Source: a virus. Taken from it: a DNA stretch of 23,376 nucleotides. The translations under genes were made by a program, and so were the position numbers. Of the stretch, positions 3,128-22,901 are shown one piece after another. The notes beneath the pieces are model-generated. The model had not been told where the DNA came from and searched no databases. It was given only the letters and a program-made list of their open reading frames with translations. Within the stretch, counting starts at the first letter, position 1. Every line of letters starts with the position of its first letter. The stretch spans positions 1 through 23,376 of IMG/VR virus record IMGVR_UViG_3300008116_000694; one strand, 5' to 3'.

Positions 3128-3155
3128 AAAAAGAGCGCCGAAAGGCGCTCTTTTT
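3126..3155. terminator. bidirectional intrinsic terminator
   Basis: A perfect 7-bp stem GAGCGCC (3133-3139) / GGCGCTC (3144-3150) with a GAAA loop, flanked by A7 on the left and T5 on the right. It therefore works on both strands. It lies between convergent genes: the + strand coiled-coil gene ending at 3127 and the - strand methyltransferase ending at 3154. Confidence 0.92.
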
Positions 3156-3864
3156 ATTTCTTTATTAGACTCATAATATCTGGTCGAGATTTGTGAACTG
3201 CAATATAATCTGGACCATGAAAATCTTCATCCCAAAGATGATATTCTTTGAATTCAATTCCGTCCGGTGATATCTTACCCCAGACATATCCGAGAGGATT
3301 CAACATTTTATAAAAATCAATCAAGAGATTCTTTGTTAGCACATTCATGAAACTATATTCAAATTGAATAAGGGCAACATGTCCTTTATTTAAGATATTT
3401 TCAAACCCCTGGAGTACTTCATATTCATGTCCTTCAGTATCTATTTTTAAATAATCCACATAACCAATATCATGCATTTTCAAGTAGACATCACCCGGTA
3501 ATACTACACCAGTTGTCCACACAGAATCATCATGTCGAATATCTGAAATGGTTGTTGTAACTCTATCATTATGTGGTACATACTTTACTGGAATCTCTCT
3601 GAAACTATTTGATAATCCAAAGTTGTTGGGAACCATTTTATCATCTAACGTTTGTTCTTGTAACATATGACGATATGTTCGAGTACTTATTTCAAACATA
3701 TGAATGTGTGCATTATGATGAAATGAACGCGCCATTTGTGTCCAATACCCCCGATTACATCCTACATCTAGAATGGTGTTAAATCCTATAGGAATCAATT
3801 TTTCAAGAAGTTGATATTCTCCATGTGTTTGGAATTCTTCAATTGCATTATATTCTGGTAACAT
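3154..3864 (-). CDS. FkbM-family SAM-dependent methyltransferase
   Basis: A 236-aa protein, a usual length for this family. Residues 32-40 (LDVGCNRGY) are the SAM-binding motif I, and FEIS at 57-60 fits the acidic residue that ends the second strand and contacts the SAM ribose. Residues 137-154 (DYLKIDTEGHEYEVLQGF) are the diagnostic FkbM motif. FkbM enzymes O-methylate small molecules or sugars, often in polysaccharide or glycan clusters. Its start overlaps the stop of the upstream glycosyltransferase by one base (TAATG), so the two are translationally coupled and probably act on the same glycan. The substrate is not known. Transcription should come from the - strand promoter at 6566-6594 and end at 3126-3155. 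Confidence 0.88.
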   Translation of the reverse strand: MLPEYNAIEEFQTHGEYQLLEKLIPIGFNTILDVGCNRGYWTQMARSFHHNAHIHMFEISTRTYRHMLQEQTLDDKMVPNNFGLSNSFREIPVKYVPHNDRVTTTISDIRHDDSVWTTGVVLPGDVYLKMHDIGYVDYLKIDTEGHEYEVLQGFENILNKGHVALIQFEYSFMNVLTKNLLIDFYKMLNPLGYVWGKISPDGIEFKEYHLWDEDFHGPDYIAVHKSRPDIMSLIKK

Positions 3865-6539
3865 TACAAAGCCCCTTTAGGATAAAATTCAGTTTTTCCA
3901 ACATGTCTGCAAATGATACTGGTATCAACAAAAATTTTAGCACCCACTTCTTGTGCCCGGCGACAAAAATATACATCTTCTGATATAGTGTTGGCATGAT
4001 TTAAAGCCGATGTATATACAAATTGTGGATAACCAATTTTTCTTATAACATCAGATTTAACAAGTACACAACCAAAACCGCACCCATCAATTTCTTGTAA
4101 CCCCTTGTTAGATAATAAACTTGTAATGAACACATTCGATACGCCGCCCTGTGCATTCTTTCTATAAATCTCAGGAATTTCTACACCATCTTTTCTTTGA
4201 ATATACACACCTGACACCATGTCCACGTTGTGGGACAGCAATTTTACTAAAGTGTCTTGTGGCAAAACAATATCACTGTCTACAGAAAACAGATAATCAA
4301 ATCGTTCTGCCCAATTGGCAATTAAATTACGTATCTGGTCAATTTGATACCCGAAGAAATATTGGAATGTTATTTCCACATCATCAGGAACATCTAAATC
4401 ATAGATGCTTTTAAAAGTTTCAGGCTCAACATATTTGTTGGTAGGAATAGCCAACAGAATTTTTTTCTTTTTCATGTCTTGTCTATTTCGAATGAATTTG
4501 CTCGTTCTGTCTTGTTCTAAACCATTCACTTTATAATCGTTTAAAGGATTGATATCATTATAAGAGTACACAATTTTTTGTAGTGCTTTCACCTTCTTAG
4601 GATCAGCTTGTTCTAAAATGGAATAGAACGTGGCATTATCTCCGCCAGCTCGGAACCAGTTCCCAGCGTCATCTTGAAACTCGGTTAATGGGATATTGTT
4701 AACCAAATATTTTTTGAATGTTCGTAAATGAGTATAAGGAATAGCCCAAGCAAAATGATGTTGTCGGTATGTTTTAGTTTCTTTTACATGTTCTGGGTAT
4801 TCTTGAGCTATTAAAGGAATATCATCCGCTTGTGACCACATACTTCCATATGTGAATTCAGTTGATCCATCGTACAGGGTATTGTAATAATGAAAGATGT
4901 TATTGTCAGGAATTAAACAATCATCACCATCAAGTAGCATGATGATATCATCATCAGATGCCTTCAGGAATCCCATGACTTGATTATGTACAGCACCCAT
5001 ATTCTGTTCATTATTAATTACAATGAATTTCTTTCGTAAGGCTTCAGGAAACAGCTCTAATGTTTCTTGTACTATTTTCAAGGAGTTATCCGTAGATGCA
5101 TCATTGATAAGTACCATTTGATAATTATCATAATCCTGTGACGCCACCGACAATATGCATTTTCTAATATATTCTTCGGCATTATAAAATGGTGCAATTA
5201 CAGTTATAGGTTGTTGCGGGTATGACCGAACAACATTCCATTCTTCTGAATTACTAAATCTCCGTTGAAACACTTCATGTACTTTTTGATTGATACGAGA
5301 CACTTTACGGTACTCATCAACAGAAAGATACATATTTAACTTTTTGTAGATATGCTGTTTCCATTGTAGAGCCACGGTATCCCAACCAGCAATATCATGA
5401 ACGATATTGCAGTAATGCATCTTTTGTTGATGAACATACTTGTTGTAGTAGGCATCACAAGTTAATTCAACAAATTTTTCCACTTGGTTCATTTTATCTA
5501 TAGATGGAAATAATCCATTAGGTTCAATAGCATAATCCATTTTATAGCATGCCAAGTCTAACGCAGTTTCTTCTAAAGCCCCAAATCGTGTTGTAATGAT
5601 GGGTGTGTTATACAGTAACGATTCTAAACTTGAAATGCCAAATGTTTCAGGGAACGCGCCCGGGAAAATCATGAAAGATGCTTTAGCTAGGTGATGTGCA
5701 ATTTCTGGCTGAGGAATTACACCAGTAAACGTAACATCTAAAGTCTTGAAATCATCACGTTCAGTCAATTCATGAAATTTTATTTCTTGTTCATCTGGTG
5801 GAGCTCCGTCACGGAATCTATAGTAACCTCCAATGATAGTTAGCTTGGCTTGTGGAATTTTCGTTTTCACTTTAGGCCAAACATGTTCCAATAATGGTAA
5901 CATGCCTTTTGTTATAGAGGCATTGTAAATGAACAAGTTGGGATCTTTTTGTGTAATGTTAACTTCAGGAATCCATTTCTTTGCCCCGTTTCGAGTCATG
6001 AAAATTTTATTTTTCAACACTTCAAAATTTCTTTTGCGCCCGTGGTCACAGTTTGAAACATATGTGGTATGAAAATCCGACAATGTGAAAATTTCATCAA
6101 TATATTTCTGAGTGACTAGTTCTTCAACTAAGTGATCCCCAGAACAAAAAGTGTCGTGCAGCCAAAGAACTTTATATTTTGCACTTTGTTGTAGTTGGGT
6201 GAATACATTTGTGGGATAGGATTTCCCTATCATGTTATTGTTTTCCCAATGTTCTCCTGAAAGGAATGGAACCACTGACCGAGAGCCAATCATTACATCA
6301 CAGGTATAATTGTTGGGATGATGTAACTTTTGAAGGTTCACATATTCCACACCATCATATATCCCTTCTTTGGCACGACTGTCATCACAATGGTTAAAGA
6401 CAGTCACTTGAAATCCTAGTTCTTGAAGTTCTTTCGCCATGTAAATAATGGCTGATTCTGACCCGCCAAGACCATATTTTTCAATAGTAGTAGCGTCATA
6501 TGTTAGCCCAATAACATCAATTATAGCAATTTTTATCAT
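3864..6539 (-). CDS. three-domain glycosyltransferase (GT-B + GT2 + GT-A)
   Basis: An 891-aa cytoplasmic enzyme with no membrane segments. Residues 1-400 look like a GT4-type GT-B fold: an N-terminal 'GLGGSESAIIYMAKEL' (23-38) and the donor-site region FPGAFPETFGISSLESLLY (292-310). Residues 445-660 are a GT2-type GT-A domain: VIAPFYNAEEYI (447-458), VLINDASTDNS (476-486) and the metal-binding DGDD (537-540). Residues 692-885 are a second, different GT-A domain with DSD (754-756), a GCGFGCVLVK loop (819-828), EDVYF (854-858) and RHVG (878-881). This last domain is clearly related to the stand-alone enzyme at 20069-20776. Three putative catalytic centres in one chain suggest stepwise assembly of a short glycan. 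The start is set by GAGG at 6546-6549. Acceptor and donors are unknown. Confidence 0.85.
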   Translation of the reverse strand: MIKIAIIDVIGLTYDATTIEKYGLGGSESAIIYMAKELQELGFQVTVFNHCDDSRAKEGIYDGVEYVNLQKLHHPNNYTCDVMIGSRSVVPFLSGEHWENNNMIGKSYPTNVFTQLQQSAKYKVLWLHDTFCSGDHLVEELVTQKYIDEIFTLSDFHTTYVSNCDHGRKRNFEVLKNKIFMTRNGAKKWIPEVNITQKDPNLFIYNASITKGMLPLLEHVWPKVKTKIPQAKLTIIGGYYRFRDGAPPDEQEIKFHELTERDDFKTLDVTFTGVIPQPEIAHHLAKASFMIFPGAFPETFGISSLESLLYNTPIITTRFGALEETALDLACYKMDYAIEPNGLFPSIDKMNQVEKFVELTCDAYYNKYVHQQKMHYCNIVHDIAGWDTVALQWKQHIYKKLNMYLSVDEYRKVSRINQKVHEVFQRRFSNSEEWNVVRSYPQQPITVIAPFYNAEEYIRKCILSVASQDYDNYQMVLINDASTDNSLKIVQETLELFPEALRKKFIVINNEQNMGAVHNQVMGFLKASDDDIIMLLDGDDCLIPDNNIFHYYNTLYDGSTEFTYGSMWSQADDIPLIAQEYPEHVKETKTYRQHHFAWAIPYTHLRTFKKYLVNNIPLTEFQDDAGNWFRAGGDNATFYSILEQADPKKVKALQKIVYSYNDINPLNDYKVNGLEQDRTSKFIRNRQDMKKKKILLAIPTNKYVEPETFKSIYDLDVPDDVEITFQYFFGYQIDQIRNLIANWAERFDYLFSVDSDIVLPQDTLVKLLSHNVDMVSGVYIQRKDGVEIPEIYRKNAQGGVSNVFITSLLSNKGLQEIDGCGFGCVLVKSDVIRKIGYPQFVYTSALNHANTISEDVYFCRRAQEVGAKIFVDTSIICRHVGKTEFYPKGAL

Positions 6540-6561: not shown

Positions 6562-6569
6562 TATAAATA
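6562..6569 (+). promoter_or_regulatory. T4-type late promoter (+ strand)
   Basis: An exact TATAAATA on the + strand, 90 bases before the collagen-like fibre start. It shares four bases (6566-6569) with the -10 box of the opposing - strand promoter, so the two cannot be occupied at once. The variant box at 6603-6610 could also serve the fibre gene. Confidence 0.6.
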
Positions 6570-6594
6570 TAGTATTATATATCTCATTTGTCAA
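6566..6594 (-). promoter_or_regulatory. sigma70-type promoter for the glycosyltransferase/FkbM cassette
   Basis: Read on the - strand, a perfect -35 box TTGACA (6594-6589), a 17-base spacer and a -10 box TATATT (6571-6566; one mismatch to TATAAT). The predicted start near 6559 gives a leader of about 20 bases containing the GAGG ribosome site. It differs in type from the late boxes of the neighbouring structural genes, so early or host-polymerase expression is expected. Confidence 0.75.
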
Positions 6595-6602
6595 GAGAAA
6601 CA

Positions 6603-6610
6603 GATAAATA
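6603..6610 (+). promoter_or_regulatory. late promoter variant GATAAATA
   Basis: GATAAATA differs from the T4 late box only at the first base; NATAAATA variants are known in T4-like cyanophages. It lies 49 bases before the fibre ATG and just outside the opposing -35 box, so it may be the working late promoter for the fibre gene. Confidence 0.5.
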
Positions 6611-6629
6611 GTGAACAACATATACCCCT

Positions 6630-6648
6630 CTGCTATATAGCAGCTTTT
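6630..6648 (+). other. leader palindrome before the fibre ribosome site
   Basis: Bases 6630-6643 form a perfect 14-base palindrome (CTGCTATATAGCAG), able to make a short hairpin followed by CTTTT and then the GAGGAG ribosome site at 6649-6654. It is too weak to call a terminator. It may be an mRNA leader structure or a protein-binding site. Confidence 0.35.
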
Positions 6649-6658
6649 GAGGAGCCAA

Positions 6659-9379
6659 ATGGCAAATTATATTAGATTGAAAAGATCCGCGACACCTAGC
6701 AAAGTCCCTACAATAGGTGATATAGAATTAGGTGAGTTAGCAATCAATACATATGACGGAAAATTATATCTAAAAAAAGATAATGGAACTGCTAGTGTTG
6801 TTTCTTTAGGGGAAACAGGATTCACTGGTAGTATTGGTGCAACAGGTTTTACAGGTAGCCAAGGTGACCAAGGTGTTCAAGGAGACCAAGGTTTTCCAGG
6901 TGATACTGGATTCACAGGAAGTCAAGGCGATGTTGGTTTCACTGGAAGCCAGGGCACCCAAGGCACCACAGGATTCACAGGATCTTTAGGGTATACTGGT
7001 AGTCAAGGACCTATTGGCGCTTCTGCTACCGGTCGTATCTATTGGTTTGCTTCAACTGCGAGTGATTTAGGAAGTCCCGCTTATGAATCCATTAGTTTAA
7101 CCATTTCTGGTCTAGCACAAGATGACATGTCTGCGTCTGCGACGAATACTTCAGGTGAAGTGTTTATTGCTGGATTCGCTACACCGCCTGGAGAACCTTA
7201 TATCGAAGAAATTCCTGTTGGCGAAATTCAATGGCGCCTTTGGGCTAAAGTAGATGATGTTTCTGGTGTTTCCAACTTAGTTGTAAAAGTTTATAAAGTA
7301 GATACAACAAACAGCAATACCGAAACATTATTATTCAGCCAAGACAGCCCAGAAATCAATAGCACCAGTTACCAACAATATCTGTTTAGCAGTTTCGTCA
7401 CATCACCTGTCCCCTTGTTGTTAACTGACCGTATTGTTGTGAAACTTTACGTGAAAACTACTTCAACAACAAGTATTACTTTAACAACTGCCCATGATGG
7501 TAACACCTATCAAAGTAGTGTGGTAACACCTATTACCCAAGGTGTTACAGGATTCACTGGTAGTAAAGGGTTCACTGGTAGTAAAGGCGATGTTGGATTC
7601 ACTGGGAGTCAAGGCTCCACGGGGTTCACAGGAAGTCAAGGTGATTTTGGTTTCACAGGAAGCAAAGGAGATACTGGCTTCACTGGAAGTCAAGGCGATG
7701 TTGGTTTCACCGGTAGTGTCGGCTTCACAGGAAGCAAAGGAGATACTGGCTTCACAGGAAGCAAAGGAGATACTGGCTTCACTGGAAGTCAAGGCGATGT
7801 TGGTTTCACAGGAAGTCAAGGAGCAGGATTCACAGGAAGCAAAGGAGATACTGGCTTCACTGGGAGTGTCGGCTTTACAGGTAGTCAAGGCTCCACCGGT
7901 TTCACTGGAAGCAAAGGAGATACCGGTTTCACTGGTAGTCAAGGACCTATTGGCGCTTCTGCTACCGGTCGTATCTATTGGTTTGCTTCAACTGCGAGTG
8001 ATTTAGGAACTCCCGCTTATGAATCCATTAGTTTAACCATTTCTGGTCTAGCACAAGATGACATGTCTGCTACCGTGAGTAGCAGCACTGGTCAAGTATT
8101 GATTGCTGGATTCGCTACACCGCCTGGAGAACCTTATATCGAAGAAATTCCCGTTGGCGAAATTCAATGGCGTATCTGGGCTAAAGTAGATGATGCCAAT
8201 GGAGCTAGTAAAATTGTTGTGAAGGTATACAAAGTAGATACAACAAACAGCAACACGGAAACCTTATTATTCAGTCAAGACAGCCCAGAAATCAATAGTA
8301 CTAGCTACCAACAATATGTTTTTAGTAGCTTCGTGACCTCACCGGTTCCATTATTACTAACTGATAGAATTGTTGTGAAATTGTTTGCTGAAACCACCTC
8401 GTCTACTAACATTATTGTTACAACTGCCCATGATGGTAACACCTATCAAAGTAGTGTGGTAACACCTATCACCCAAGGTGTTACTGGCTTCACCGGAAGC
8501 AAAGGTGATACCGGCTTTACAGGTAGTCAAGGGTCTGGATTAGGTTCTTGGACTAATATTACAACAACAGGTTCTACGGGTGTTCGAAGTAATCGTTACA
8601 TCATTACAACATCTGGTGTTGGTTTTACATTCAATCTTCCCGCAAGTCCTTCAACAGGTGACTGGCTTATCATCACAGATGGAGCCGACTGGAGCACCAA
8701 CACATTAACTATCGGAAGAAATGGGTCCACAATTGAAGGTGTGGCTGATGATTTATTAGTGAACTTCAAAGGTATCACTATCGAATTCTTCTATTCAGGT
8801 AGTACATGGCAAGTCACAGCCAACCTAGGACCTAAAGGAGATGCAGGTCCATCTAATTTAATTAATACTACCGATGACACTACATCTACAACATTATATC
8901 CCGTCCTGGTGGGATTTGTGGGTAGTAACACCACGGCTAAAACTACATCAACAAAATTAAGTTATGATGCTGCAACCGGAGCATTGCAAATTCAAGCCTT
9001 GTTAGAAAAAGCCACGATTTCTGCTACTGCTGCCACAGGTACTATAAATTATGATGCGGCAGACCAAGCGGTGCTATACTACACAACTAATGCCTCAGCT
9101 AACTGGACGTTGAATGTCCGTGGATCAGCAACCACATCATTAAACACCATGATGCCTATTGGGGAATCATTAACTGTGGCATTTTTAGTAACGAATGGAG
9201 CAACAGCGTTCTACGCTACAGGATTTCAAATTGATGGTAATGTTGTTACTCTAAGATGGGAAGGTGGCACAGCACCCACAGCAGGAAATACTAACAGTAT
9301 TGATGTGTATACATACAGTATTTTGAAAACAGGAAGTGCTGCTTTCACTGTGTTAGCTTCACGCACAAAATTTGCATAA
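6659..9379 (+). CDS. collagen-like tail fibre with duplicated 185-aa module
   Basis: A 906-aa fibre protein. I take ATG 6659 as the start: GAGGAG sits at 6649-6654, while the in-frame TTG at 6647 would place the ribosome site inside the gene. Residues 1-45 (MANYIRLKRSATPSKVP, then GELAINTYDGKLYLKKDNG) are an Mtd-like fibre attachment module. Residues 51-118, 297-424 and about 607-628 are collagen-like Gly-X-Y tracts built on GFTGSxGDT. Residues 113-297 and 425-609 are two copies of one globular beta domain (beginning GPIGASATGRIYWFASTASD). The C-terminal part holds 'GDWLIITDGADWSTNTLTIG' and ends 'SIDVYTYSILKTGSAAFTVL', both familiar ends of phage fibres. It probably forms a trimeric triple-helical fibre with knob domains. 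The many Thr/Ser in the tracts are possible O-glycosylation sites. Confidence 0.88.
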   Translation: MANYIRLKRSATPSKVPTIGDIELGELAINTYDGKLYLKKDNGTASVVSLGETGFTGSIGATGFTGSQGDQGVQGDQGFPGDTGFTGSQGDVGFTGSQGTQGTTGFTGSLGYTGSQGPIGASATGRIYWFASTASDLGSPAYESISLTISGLAQDDMSASATNTSGEVFIAGFATPPGEPYIEEIPVGEIQWRLWAKVDDVSGVSNLVVKVYKVDTTNSNTETLLFSQDSPEINSTSYQQYLFSSFVTSPVPLLLTDRIVVKLYVKTTSTTSITLTTAHDGNTYQSSVVTPITQGVTGFTGSKGFTGSKGDVGFTGSQGSTGFTGSQGDFGFTGSKGDTGFTGSQGDVGFTGSVGFTGSKGDTGFTGSKGDTGFTGSQGDVGFTGSQGAGFTGSKGDTGFTGSVGFTGSQGSTGFTGSKGDTGFTGSQGPIGASATGRIYWFASTASDLGTPAYESISLTISGLAQDDMSATVSSSTGQVLIAGFATPPGEPYIEEIPVGEIQWRIWAKVDDANGASKIVVKVYKVDTTNSNTETLLFSQDSPEINSTSYQQYVFSSFVTSPVPLLLTDRIVVKLFAETTSSTNIIVTTAHDGNTYQSSVVTPITQGVTGFTGSKGDTGFTGSQGSGLGSWTNITTTGSTGVRSNRYIITTSGVGFTFNLPASPSTGDWLIITDGADWSTNTLTIGRNGSTIEGVADDLLVNFKGITIEFFYSGSTWQVTANLGPKGDAGPSNLINTTDDTTSTTLYPVLVGFVGSNTTAKTTSTKLSYDAATGALQIQALLEKATISATAATGTINYDAADQAVLYYTTNASANWTLNVRGSATTSLNTMMPIGESLTVAFLVTNGATAFYATGFQIDGNVVTLRWEGGTAPTAGNTNSIDVYTYSILKTGSAAFTVLASRTKFA
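6995..7548 (+). repeat. direct repeat, copy 1 (554 bp)
   Basis: Codes for the first 185-aa module of the collagen-like fibre. It matches 7931-8484 at a constant offset of 936 bases with no net insertion or deletion. Long runs are identical (for example the stretch around 7001-7070), while the middle has diverged at both silent and amino-acid-changing positions. Confidence 0.9.
7549..7930 (+). repeat. collagen-like Gly-X-Y repeat tract
   Basis: Imperfect 9- to 27-base periodic DNA coding for GFTGSKGDT and GFTGSQGDV-type units. Gly is at every third residue, and X-Y pairs are mostly FT, SQ/SK and DT/DV, with almost no proline. A shorter tract of the same type lies at about 6809-6994. Repeat number is probably unstable. 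Confidence 0.9.
7931..8484 (+). repeat. direct repeat, copy 2 (554 bp)
   Basis: Second copy of the module at 6995-7548, inside the same reading frame. Residue differences cluster in short loops: SASATNTSGEV versus SATVSSSTGQV, and VDDVSGVSNLV versus VDDANGASKIV. Confidence 0.9.
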
Positions 9380-19558: not shown

Positions 19559-19587
19559 TTGACTAAGTAATAGTAGTACGTTATATT
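19559..19587 (+). promoter_or_regulatory. sigma70-type promoter for the second modification cassette
   Basis: TTGACT (19559-19564), a 17-base spacer and TATATT (19582-19587). The spacing and -10 box are the same as for the - strand promoter at 6566-6594. The predicted start near 19594 gives a ~20-base leader with GAGGTG (19602-19607) before the ATG at 19614. Confidence 0.7.
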
Positions 19588-19613: not shown

Positions 19614-20072
19614 ATGGAACCGATTACCAGTGACACATTAATTTCTGCTTTAAATGATAGCCCATCGGAATATGAAGAACGATATGTCCGATGGGTTTCT
19701 ATTGGGTATGATAAAACTCGGTTATCTGAGTTGTTGTACGAGTTGAAATATTTAAAAGAGCAAAACACCTGGCCCGAACGGATTGCTTTACTAGAAGATA
19801 TTCTGTCTCAGCATGATCCTGAACATTTATTAAATCTTCTTAACAATGATATGCAAACTCATAGATTTGCCATTATTGAAAAATGGGCACGGCTAGCTGC
19901 CATGGAAATCCTTATTTATGACAAGTACAGCATTGAGACACTAAACACAGTTACACAATTTCCTTTAGCTGATTATCAACTATTTGTGAAACGAGTTTAC
20001 GAACTCACTGAGTTGATTCGTGGCATCACTACACAAGCTACCACCTTAGCATCAGGCATAGCTGGCGTATGA
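19614..20072 (+). CDS. alpha-helical protein of unknown function
   Basis: A 152-aa protein. ATG 19614 is chosen because GAGGTG lies six bases upstream; the in-frame GTG at 19605 is part of that ribosome site. It is almost wholly helical, Leu/Glu/Tyr-rich ('LSELLYELKYLKEQ', 'LLALLEDILSQHD'-like segments, 'DYQLFVKRVYELTELIRGI'), with no membrane segment or catalytic motif. It leads a three-gene cassette and overlaps the glycosyltransferase start by four bases (ATGA), so it may be a partner or regulator of that enzyme, but this is only inferred from position. Confidence 0.6.
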   Translation: MEPITSDTLISALNDSPSEYEERYVRWVSIGYDKTRLSELLYELKYLKEQNTWPERIALLEDILSQHDPEHLLNLLNNDMQTHRFAIIEKWARLAAMEILIYDKYSIETLNTVTQFPLADYQLFVKRVYELTELIRGITTQATTLASGIAGV

Positions 20073-20776
20073 AGAACATTTATGATTTAAGTGCATGGCA
20101 AGCAAAACCAGTGAAACTTGCTGTTCTAGTTCCTTGCCGAGAAAACATGTACAGTTTATTCACAGCATCATTGGTTGAATTAGTAAAAACTACAACCATG
20201 GCGGGTATAGATGTGCATGTGATTTATGACCAAAGCACTATACTACTTTCTCAACGTGAGAAACTAGCAAAACAAGCTATATCTATGAATTCTGATTATG
20301 CTCTGTGGTTAGATTCTGACATGTTATTTCCTAGCACCGCAGCTTTGCGTTTATTAAATCATAAACAAGATATAGTTTGTTCTAACTATATGAAACGTTC
20401 CGTGCCTTTACAAACTGTAGCATATCCAGAACGTGGTAATTGGGAAAATTGGTTACCTTTAGAAGGTGACCAAGAACTTCAAGAAGTTGAAGGTATTGGC
20501 ATGGGATGTATGTTAATGAAAACTGAAGTATTGAAAAATATAGAGCCTCCGTACTTCAATTTTGAATATCGTGATGGTGACTGGCACGGTGAAGATTTTT
20601 ATTTTCAACAAAAACTTCGTAATGCTGGATATAAAATATTAGTTGATATGAACTTAAGTTTTCAAGTTCGACACATCGGTCAATGGGCGTTTGGACCAAA
20701 CATTGGAACTAATGAAGAACAAAGAATAAAACGTGAAGTAACTAAAATGAAATCGAGGAAAAAGAATGCTAAATAA
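20069..20776 (+). CDS. GT-A glycosyltransferase
   Basis: A 235-aa enzyme without membrane segments. It has an N-terminal nucleotide-binding strand (KLAVLVPCRENMY, residues 16-28), the metal/donor motif LDSDMLFP (81-88), a GIGMGCMLMK loop (142-151), EDFYF (175-179) as likely catalytic/acceptor region, and RHIG (201-204). The same order of motifs occurs in residues 692-885 of the 891-aa enzyme at 3864-6539, so the two are paralogues and probably use similar donors. The sequence ends in a basic tail (KMKSRKKNAK). It overlaps its neighbours on both sides (4 and 11 bases). The acceptor is unknown; virion fibre, host glycan or another target are all possible. Confidence 0.82.
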   Translation: MKNIYDLSAWQAKPVKLAVLVPCRENMYSLFTASLVELVKTTTMAGIDVHVIYDQSTILLSQREKLAKQAISMNSDYALWLDSDMLFPSTAALRLLNHKQDIVCSNYMKRSVPLQTVAYPERGNWENWLPLEGDQELQEVEGIGMGCMLMKTEVLKNIEPPYFNFEYRDGDWHGEDFYFQQKLRNAGYKILVDMNLSFQVRHIGQWAFGPNIGTNEEQRIKREVTKMKSRKKNAK

Positions 20777-21879: not shown

Positions 21880-21887
21880 TATAAATA
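21880..21887 (+). promoter_or_regulatory. T4-type late promoter for the neck genes
   Basis: An exact TATAAATA, 42 bases before the gp13 ATG. Its last five bases form the start of the terminator stem at 21883-21912, so the late transcript starts at about the hairpin loop. Confidence 0.8.
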
Positions 21888-21914
21888 GTTGGGAAGAGAT
21901 TCCCAACTATTTTT
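21883..21914 (+). terminator. intrinsic terminator after the second modification cassette
   Basis: A perfect 13-bp stem: left arm 21883-21895 and right arm 21900-21912, with loop GAGA (21896-21899) and a T5 run at 21910-21914. The left arm overlaps the late promoter. Transcripts arriving from the cassette contain the whole hairpin, while late transcripts starting near 21893-21895 would lack most of the left arm. Confidence 0.85.
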
Positions 21915-21929
21915 GTTTAGAGGGTGGAA

Positions 21930-22901
21930 ATGCCAATCACAAACCGCCAAGGATTAAAAGATTATTGTTTGCGTCGCTTAGGTTATCCCGTCATTGAAAT
22001 CAATGTCGATGACGACCAAGTGGAAGATAGAATACAAGATGCTATAGATTTTTGGCACGAATATCATTTTGATGGTGTGGAACGTATCTATTTTTCTGCT
22101 GAAATTACAGCATCCACACTGAAATTATCTACAATTTTTGCGGGCAATTTCAGTGTAGGTGAAACTGTCACAGGTGCCACCTCTGGAAAAACTGCTGTTA
22201 TCACAAAAGTAAAAGGTAGTAATGAGTTGGAAATAGATGAAGAATCTGGTGCGTTCACTAATGGTGAAACCATTACAGGTTCAGTTTCTGGATTTTCCAC
22301 TACGTTACATGCAACTACTGCATATACTGAAGGCACTATGCATAAACAATACATTGAAGTGCCTGACAGAATCACAGGTATTGTTCGTGTATTTCCTTTA
22401 GGATCCGCAGGCAGTAGTGTCACAGGATCAACAAACATTTTCAATGTAGTATATCAATTTCGTTTGAATGACATGTACAACTTGTTGTCATCTGACTTGA
22501 TTTACTACCAACAAGTAAAAATGCATTTGCAAATGCTTGATGACATGTTTGCTGGCAATAGAACGATTCGTTTCAACAGAAAGATGAATCGCATCTTCAT
22601 TGATGTAAATTGGAAAGAAACTTTCGTTCCAGGTGACCATGTCATTTTTGAATGTTATGCTATTATTGATCCAGACACATATACAGAAGTATATAACGAT
22701 ATGTTTCTTCGTAAGTACGCCACATCATTGATTAAACGTCAATGGGGTGAGAACATGAAGAAGTTCCAAGGCATGCAACTCCCTGGTGGCATTCAAATGA
22801 ATGGACAGCAAATATTCAATGAAGCGGAAGAAGAAATCCGTCAAATAGAAGAACAAATGCAAAGTCGATACGAGCTTCCAGTAGATTTCATGGTAGGCTA
22901 A
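21930..22901 (+). CDS. 13: neck protein gp13
   Basis: A 323-aa T4 gp13 homologue, part of the head-completion/neck ring between portal and tail. ATG 21930 is preceded by GAGGG at 21920-21924; the in-frame GTG at 21924 lies within that site. Residues 1-50 (GLKDYCLRRLGYPVIEINVD, then RIQDAIDFWHEYHFDGVE) and the C-terminal half ('RLNDMYNLLSSDLIYYQQ', 'YNDMFLRKYATSLIKRQWG', and an acidic Glu/Gln-rich tail) are the family's conserved parts. Residues about 70-125 are an insert with two repeats (FSVGETVTGATSG and FTNGETITGSVSG), a beta module seen in other marine T4-like gp13 proteins. It is two bases from the gp14 gene. Confidence 0.9.
   Translation: MPITNRQGLKDYCLRRLGYPVIEINVDDDQVEDRIQDAIDFWHEYHFDGVERIYFSAEITASTLKLSTIFAGNFSVGETVTGATSGKTAVITKVKGSNELEIDEESGAFTNGETITGSVSGFSTTLHATTAYTEGTMHKQYIEVPDRITGIVRVFPLGSAGSSVTGSTNIFNVVYQFRLNDMYNLLSSDLIYYQQVKMHLQMLDDMFAGNRTIRFNRKMNRIFIDVNWKETFVPGDHVIFECYAIIDPDTYTEVYNDMFLRKYATSLIKRQWGENMKKFQGMQLPGGIQMNGQQIFNEAEEEIRQIEEQMQSRYELPVDFMVG

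Follow-up and report, generated by a model that had tools for sequence, protein, structure and literature searches.

The short gap between a glycosyltransferase cassette and a collagen-like tail-fibre gene in this phage probably holds an early, host-type promoter of the cassette that is nested face-to-face with a late promoter of the fibre gene, such that the open complexes of the two exclude each other. The window, by which we mean the whole stretch of 23,376 nucleotides analysed here, is a 23-kb fragment of a phage of the T4 superfamily, with many fibre genes and a gp13-type neck protein (21924-22901). Its minus strand carries the gene of a multi-domain (GT1 + GT2) glycosyltransferase (GT) of 891 aa (3864-6539; Pfam PF00535, PF13692) and, as second gene of the leftward cassette, that of an FkbM-type methyltransferase (3154-3864; Pfam PF05050). 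The cassette ends at a likely bidirectional terminator (3128-3155; 12-bp stem, A-run 5', T-run 3') that also ends the converging late genes, which extend rightward to 3127 and there meet the stem. On the plus strand the collagen-like tail-fibre gene (6659-9379) begins at the ATG at 6659, preceded by AGGAG at 6650-6654. The assignment of GT and FkbM to the leftward and of the fibre to the rightward direction, made in a preliminary description of this DNA, is supported, and since the cassette is antisense we infer that a separate promoter for the fibre must lie within the 119-bp gap. A DNA-level search of annotated phages gave no match, nor did an Rfam scan and a tRNA scan.

The leftward, early sigma70-type promoter can be read directly. 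Its -35 hexamer TTGACA (6589-6594, minus strand), which is fixed in the GT clade of the window, and its -10 hexamer TATATT (6566-6571, minus strand) are separated by 17 nt, with a predicted start at about 6559; the hexamers and the spacer had been proposed before and were verified base by base. Of the 12 hexamer bases, 11 agree with the sigma70 consensus; the motif constitutes the best site between 3001 and 10500 and has a spacer within the 16-18 nt that are the rule for early (sigma70) promoters of T4-like phages. The pattern TTGACA-N15..19-TATAWT is found once in the window and its reversed control not at all, and TTGACW-N17-TATATT has two exact matches where shuffled sequences predict 0.01. 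A second copy of this early class, TTGACT-17-TATATT (19559-19587, plus strand), precedes a cassette with another glycosyltransferase (20069-20776); in the contig of L005 an ORF homologous to the one behind this second promoter is preceded by TTGACA-16-TATATT. The perfect TATAAT at 6579-6574 was rejected as a leftward -10, because TTGACA is too close, at just 9 nt, and a -35 at the correct distance is lacking.

Two late-type boxes on the plus strand face the fibre gene, both as reported in the preliminary description and both verified. The first, TATAAATA at 6562-6569, has a predicted start at about 6575 (placed by T4 rules, with the box at -13..-6; PMC1524935) and leaves a leader of 89 nt from its end to the fibre ATG. 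The second, GATAAATA at 6603-6610, lies behind the leftward -35, back-to-back with that promoter and 48 nt 5' of the fibre ATG. The other members of the GT clade of the window have just one fibre-directed box each. The bare TATAAATA is mildly enriched in the window, with 5 matches against 2.3 expected (7 of 100 shuffles reach 5). All 5 lie on the late-gene strand, as do all 7 in a 42-kb twin contig (of L004), in which at least the first 11.5 kb of the window recur without a difference. None of these 7 is located inside an ORF of at least 100 aa, and 6 are found 19-89 nt upstream of a same-strand ORF start. TATAAATA-type 8-mers stand upstream of late genes and on the late strand, as T4-type late promoters do. 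Immediately after the late box at 21880 and ahead of the gp13 homologue, the leader holds a terminator-like hairpin (21887-21914), an inverted repeat AGTTGGGAAGAGATTCCCAACT followed by ATTTTTG. The fibre leader contains a hairpin, CTGCT-ATAT-AGCAG (6630-6643, plus strand), 5' of the ribosome site. A hairpin of the form GCT-NNNN-AGC (mostly GCTATATAGC) begins about 26 nt 5' of the start codon in 26 of the 54 distinct leaders of fibre genes (L084-L163 and the window), also in phages that lack the GT or the late box, and its flanking pair stays paired in 16 of the 26 (9.8 in shuffles, p 0.005).

The two opposite promoters have the bases AATA (6566-6569) in common, in agreement with the preliminary description. 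By computation the late box TATAAATA occupies positions -10..-3 of the leftward promoter, and the open complexes should therefore be mutually exclusive; on established promoter geometry, the melted regions would overlap at about 6563-6570. The idea that this DNA cannot hold both polymerase forms at once is supported by these predicted bubbles; shared bases and overlapping bubbles would be one mark of a mutually exclusive switch, in which polymerase sites on opposite strands overlap. Physical exclusion of the two promoters would thus follow from their overlap. The overlap alone, of two AT-rich motifs within 119 bp, is no improbable event; it draws its weight from the conservation of the layout and not from itself.

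Relatives were collected with an alignment of two GT sequences as the query, which yielded 80 viral loci; when the GT scan was repeated more broadly, hardly any further contigs appeared, and a GT search of genome contigs found no relatives. The 80 loci show two arrangements, with the GT either divergent from a fibre gene or downstream of a codirectional gene. The GT clade of the window (the twin L004, L005, L007, L008, L009, L011 and L089; SH-aLRT 100) is divergent throughout, and the gap of every member contains TTGACA-17/18-TATATT on the GT strand together with a fibre-facing NATAAATA; outside these motifs, identity of the promoter region between lineages of the clade is about 30%. A set of 59 distinct fibre genes that resemble one another at the N-terminus served as a control. 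The sigma70 motif on the opposite strand accompanies 5 of the 6 that have a divergent GT versus 0 of the 53 others (Fisher 1.2e-6), and the late box 6/6 versus 6/53. Therefore, both elements track the divergent GT-fibre pair, which is old and common to many lineages, and both promoters are very likely real. The exact composite pattern occurs in 21 stretches of viral contigs; most of these represent one unrelated repeated family or chance, and 4 belong to the GT-fibre layout (contigs of L007, L008, L009 and L010).

The same comparison bears on a different reading of the distal box, in which TATAAATA at 6562-6569 would be an A/U-rich element of the GT mRNA leader, involved in ribosome binding, with GATAAATA at 6603 as the sole driver of the fibre gene. 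Such a role would suit a box that lies 23-30 nt 5' of the GT ATG, just above the GT ribosome site, and whose 89-nt leader is the longest among the twin-contig boxes with an assigned gene (19-48 nt for the others). However, TATTTAT is absent upstream of the GT in all 41 distinct codirectional relatives and present where a divergent gene exists, and in L005, L007, L008 and L089 this box is the only fibre-facing NATAAATA. We consider the leader element quite improbable.

What is conserved is the nesting of the two promoters and not the shared bases. The sharing of bases between -10 and late box was found solely in the window and its twin contig. In L026 the box lies 1 nt past the leftward -10, in L005 and L089 7 nt, in L007 and L008 9 nt, in L058 and L066 11 nt and in L072 12 nt, so that in all of these it covers the leftward start; in L003 it lies 32 nt past the -10, and in L011 it is located behind the -35. 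The base-sharing in the window is therefore one variant of a nested layout that is conserved, displaced by about one helical turn. In 9 of 11 lineages the late box overlaps the segment -12..+15 of the leftward promoter (p 0.004 for uniform placement, kinship ignored), and the promoters are face-to-face in 10 of 11 (p 0.001 by permutation, common descent ignored).

These figures have to be weighed against the possibility that two independent promoters merely occupy one short gap, that sigma replacement alone sets the timing, and that the overlap is a sharing of AT-rich letters. A short intergenic gap favours overlap even without function, and with lengths of 58-147 nt there is little room. The base-sharing is not kept in relatives, T4 itself has crossed as well as back-to-back layouts, and fusions of a -10 with a late box of the same direction exist (L256 at 4342; L003). 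Nevertheless, the box is anchored close to the GT, beginning 23-32 nt 5' of its ATG in 12 of 17 divergent lineages, whereas its distance to the fibre gene ranges from 33 to 135 nt across the 17; moreover, the face-to-face orientation exceeds uniform placement, where back-to-back would be the economical default. Independence of the two promoters is accordingly regarded as a real but lesser possibility, and nested, mutually exclusive promoters as the preferred reading.

The way in which the GT is driven varies between lineages. In the divergent lineages L027, L028, L049, L052, L077 and L082, which fall outside the clade, no good sigma70 site is found and a late box drives the GT too; the late boxes pointing both ways are again mainly face-to-face. 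Among the 41 distinct codirectional relatives, 22 have a sigma70-type site upstream of the GT. In the codirectional relatives L012-L064 this often takes the form TTGACN-16-TGTATAAT with TAATAGC next to it; only 7-12 nt separate the end of the -10 from the GT start codon, which suggests that their GT mRNA may be leaderless or almost so. The GT thus usually appears to have its own promoter, the class of which changes between lineages, and early GT expression is apparently not universal, considering that sister lineages drive the GT by late boxes. A sigma70 -10 fused to a late box of the same direction was seen in L256 (4342-4377) and L003 (780-798), as TATATTATAAATA and TATAATATAAATA, respectively; such a fusion could render a gene both early and late.

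The time classes of the two promoters were assigned from the relatives. TTGACA-N16-18-TATAWT occurs 8 times in a 117-kb relative (L028 contig), and the 39-kb contig of L011 has 5 copies, with no matches of the reversed control in either. In relatives the motif stands before genes for DNA polymerase, ATP-dependent DNA ligase, exonuclease and Hsp20, and also upstream of an endolysin gene (L011 contig), so that the class is not confined to replication genes; TATATT is the usual form of the -10, as in the window. The TTGACA-N-TATATT class is best read as the early promoters of these phages. The T4-type late sigma gp55 (phrog_234) is encoded by the 117-kb contig of L028 (E 1.3e-61), a relative that shares the divergent gene pair, and was also found in the contigs of L048 and L043. 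Most of the related fragments searched gave no gp55 match; the window and its 42-kb twin are themselves incomplete. The time classes of the preliminary description are strengthened by the replication genes behind the same early motif and by gp55 in a relative, the switch between them being something we still infer. An order of early GT and late fibre is likely from these sigma classes. The leftward sigma70 motif might instead be constitutive and used all through infection, with a GT that is not strictly early: host-type promoters require no phage factor, and the GT has its own sigma70-type promoter in the codirectional relatives counted above as well. Against this, replication genes of relatives are preceded by promoters of the same class, and sigma70-type promoters form the early class in T4-like phages (PMC1524935), which makes constitutive use unlikely.

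In the mechanism that we propose, host RNA polymerase with sigma70 would read leftward from about 6559 into the moron-like GT-FkbM cassette and stop at the terminator at 3128-3155. Later a late sigma of the gp55 type would appear, acting with the sliding clamp, and the late polymerase would read rightward from TATAAATA at 6562-6569 (start about 6575), from GATAAATA at 6603-6610 (start about 6616), or from both, into the collagen-like fibre operon; transcripts from the former box would run back across the leftward -35. Actual use of the promoters, their timing and a contribution of exclusion to the late silencing of the GT may be as outlined. The order of GT and then fibre could result from sigma availability or replacement alone, and it is doubtful that the overlap is a regulatory necessity, with occlusion needed to turn the GT off. 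Slightly more tentative still is the view of the late box on the GT start region as a built-in off-switch, in which late-promoter opening and readback would silence the GT, the fibre would be started from the same bubble, and the antagonistic layout would have been selected across T4-like lineages.

The late promoter of T4 (gp55/gp33/gp45) shares with that of the window the 8-bp TATAAATA, the AT-rich downstream segment and the lack of a -35; the first base of the box varies, as is reported for T4 relatives (PMC2988020, PMC1524935). The distal box of the window differs in lying within an opposite-strand early -10 and in its unusually long leader. In none of the T4 divergent gaps compared (rnh|34, segD|24, 4|53, inh|segE and 26|51) does an early -10 enclose a late box. 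The gaps rnh|34 and segD|24, of which gene 34 encodes a tail fibre, contain a sigma70-like leftward motif and a rightward TATAAATA that are back-to-back, the late box being on the side of its own gene, in contrast to the window; at 4|53 and inh|segE the late boxes are crossed, similar to the window layout. Both strands of T4 are reported to be transcribed at different times at several sites (PMC2988020), whereas in the window this would happen at the promoters themselves. Like lambdoid morons, the cassette has its own promoter (6594-6566) and terminator (3128-3155) and is set in a late module; unlike them, it is a two-gene cassette that is old and conserved. Its GC content is slightly lower than that of the window (35.1% vs 39.8%). 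Novel ORFs of T4-like phages have been described as mostly not moron-like and as commonly preceded by early promoters (PMC1524935). In pelagic T4-like phages, glycosyltransferases are typical among the tail-fibre genes and thought to modify the host surface, and the authors could not predict middle and late promoters (PMC7029224).

The principle is known; what is new is the late box nested in an early -10 and the conservation of the overlapping layout. The arrangement offers a compact model in which sigma replacement could flip the direction of transcription at a single site, and the natural variants, in which the box occupies the -10, the start or the DNA behind the -35, or in which late boxes point both ways, form a set for probing how much the overlap matters. 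Finally, GT cassettes of uncultured T4-like phages are hereby tied to the early class of promoters, a link relevant to the question of whether the glycosyltransferases would act on the host surface early rather than on the virion late.
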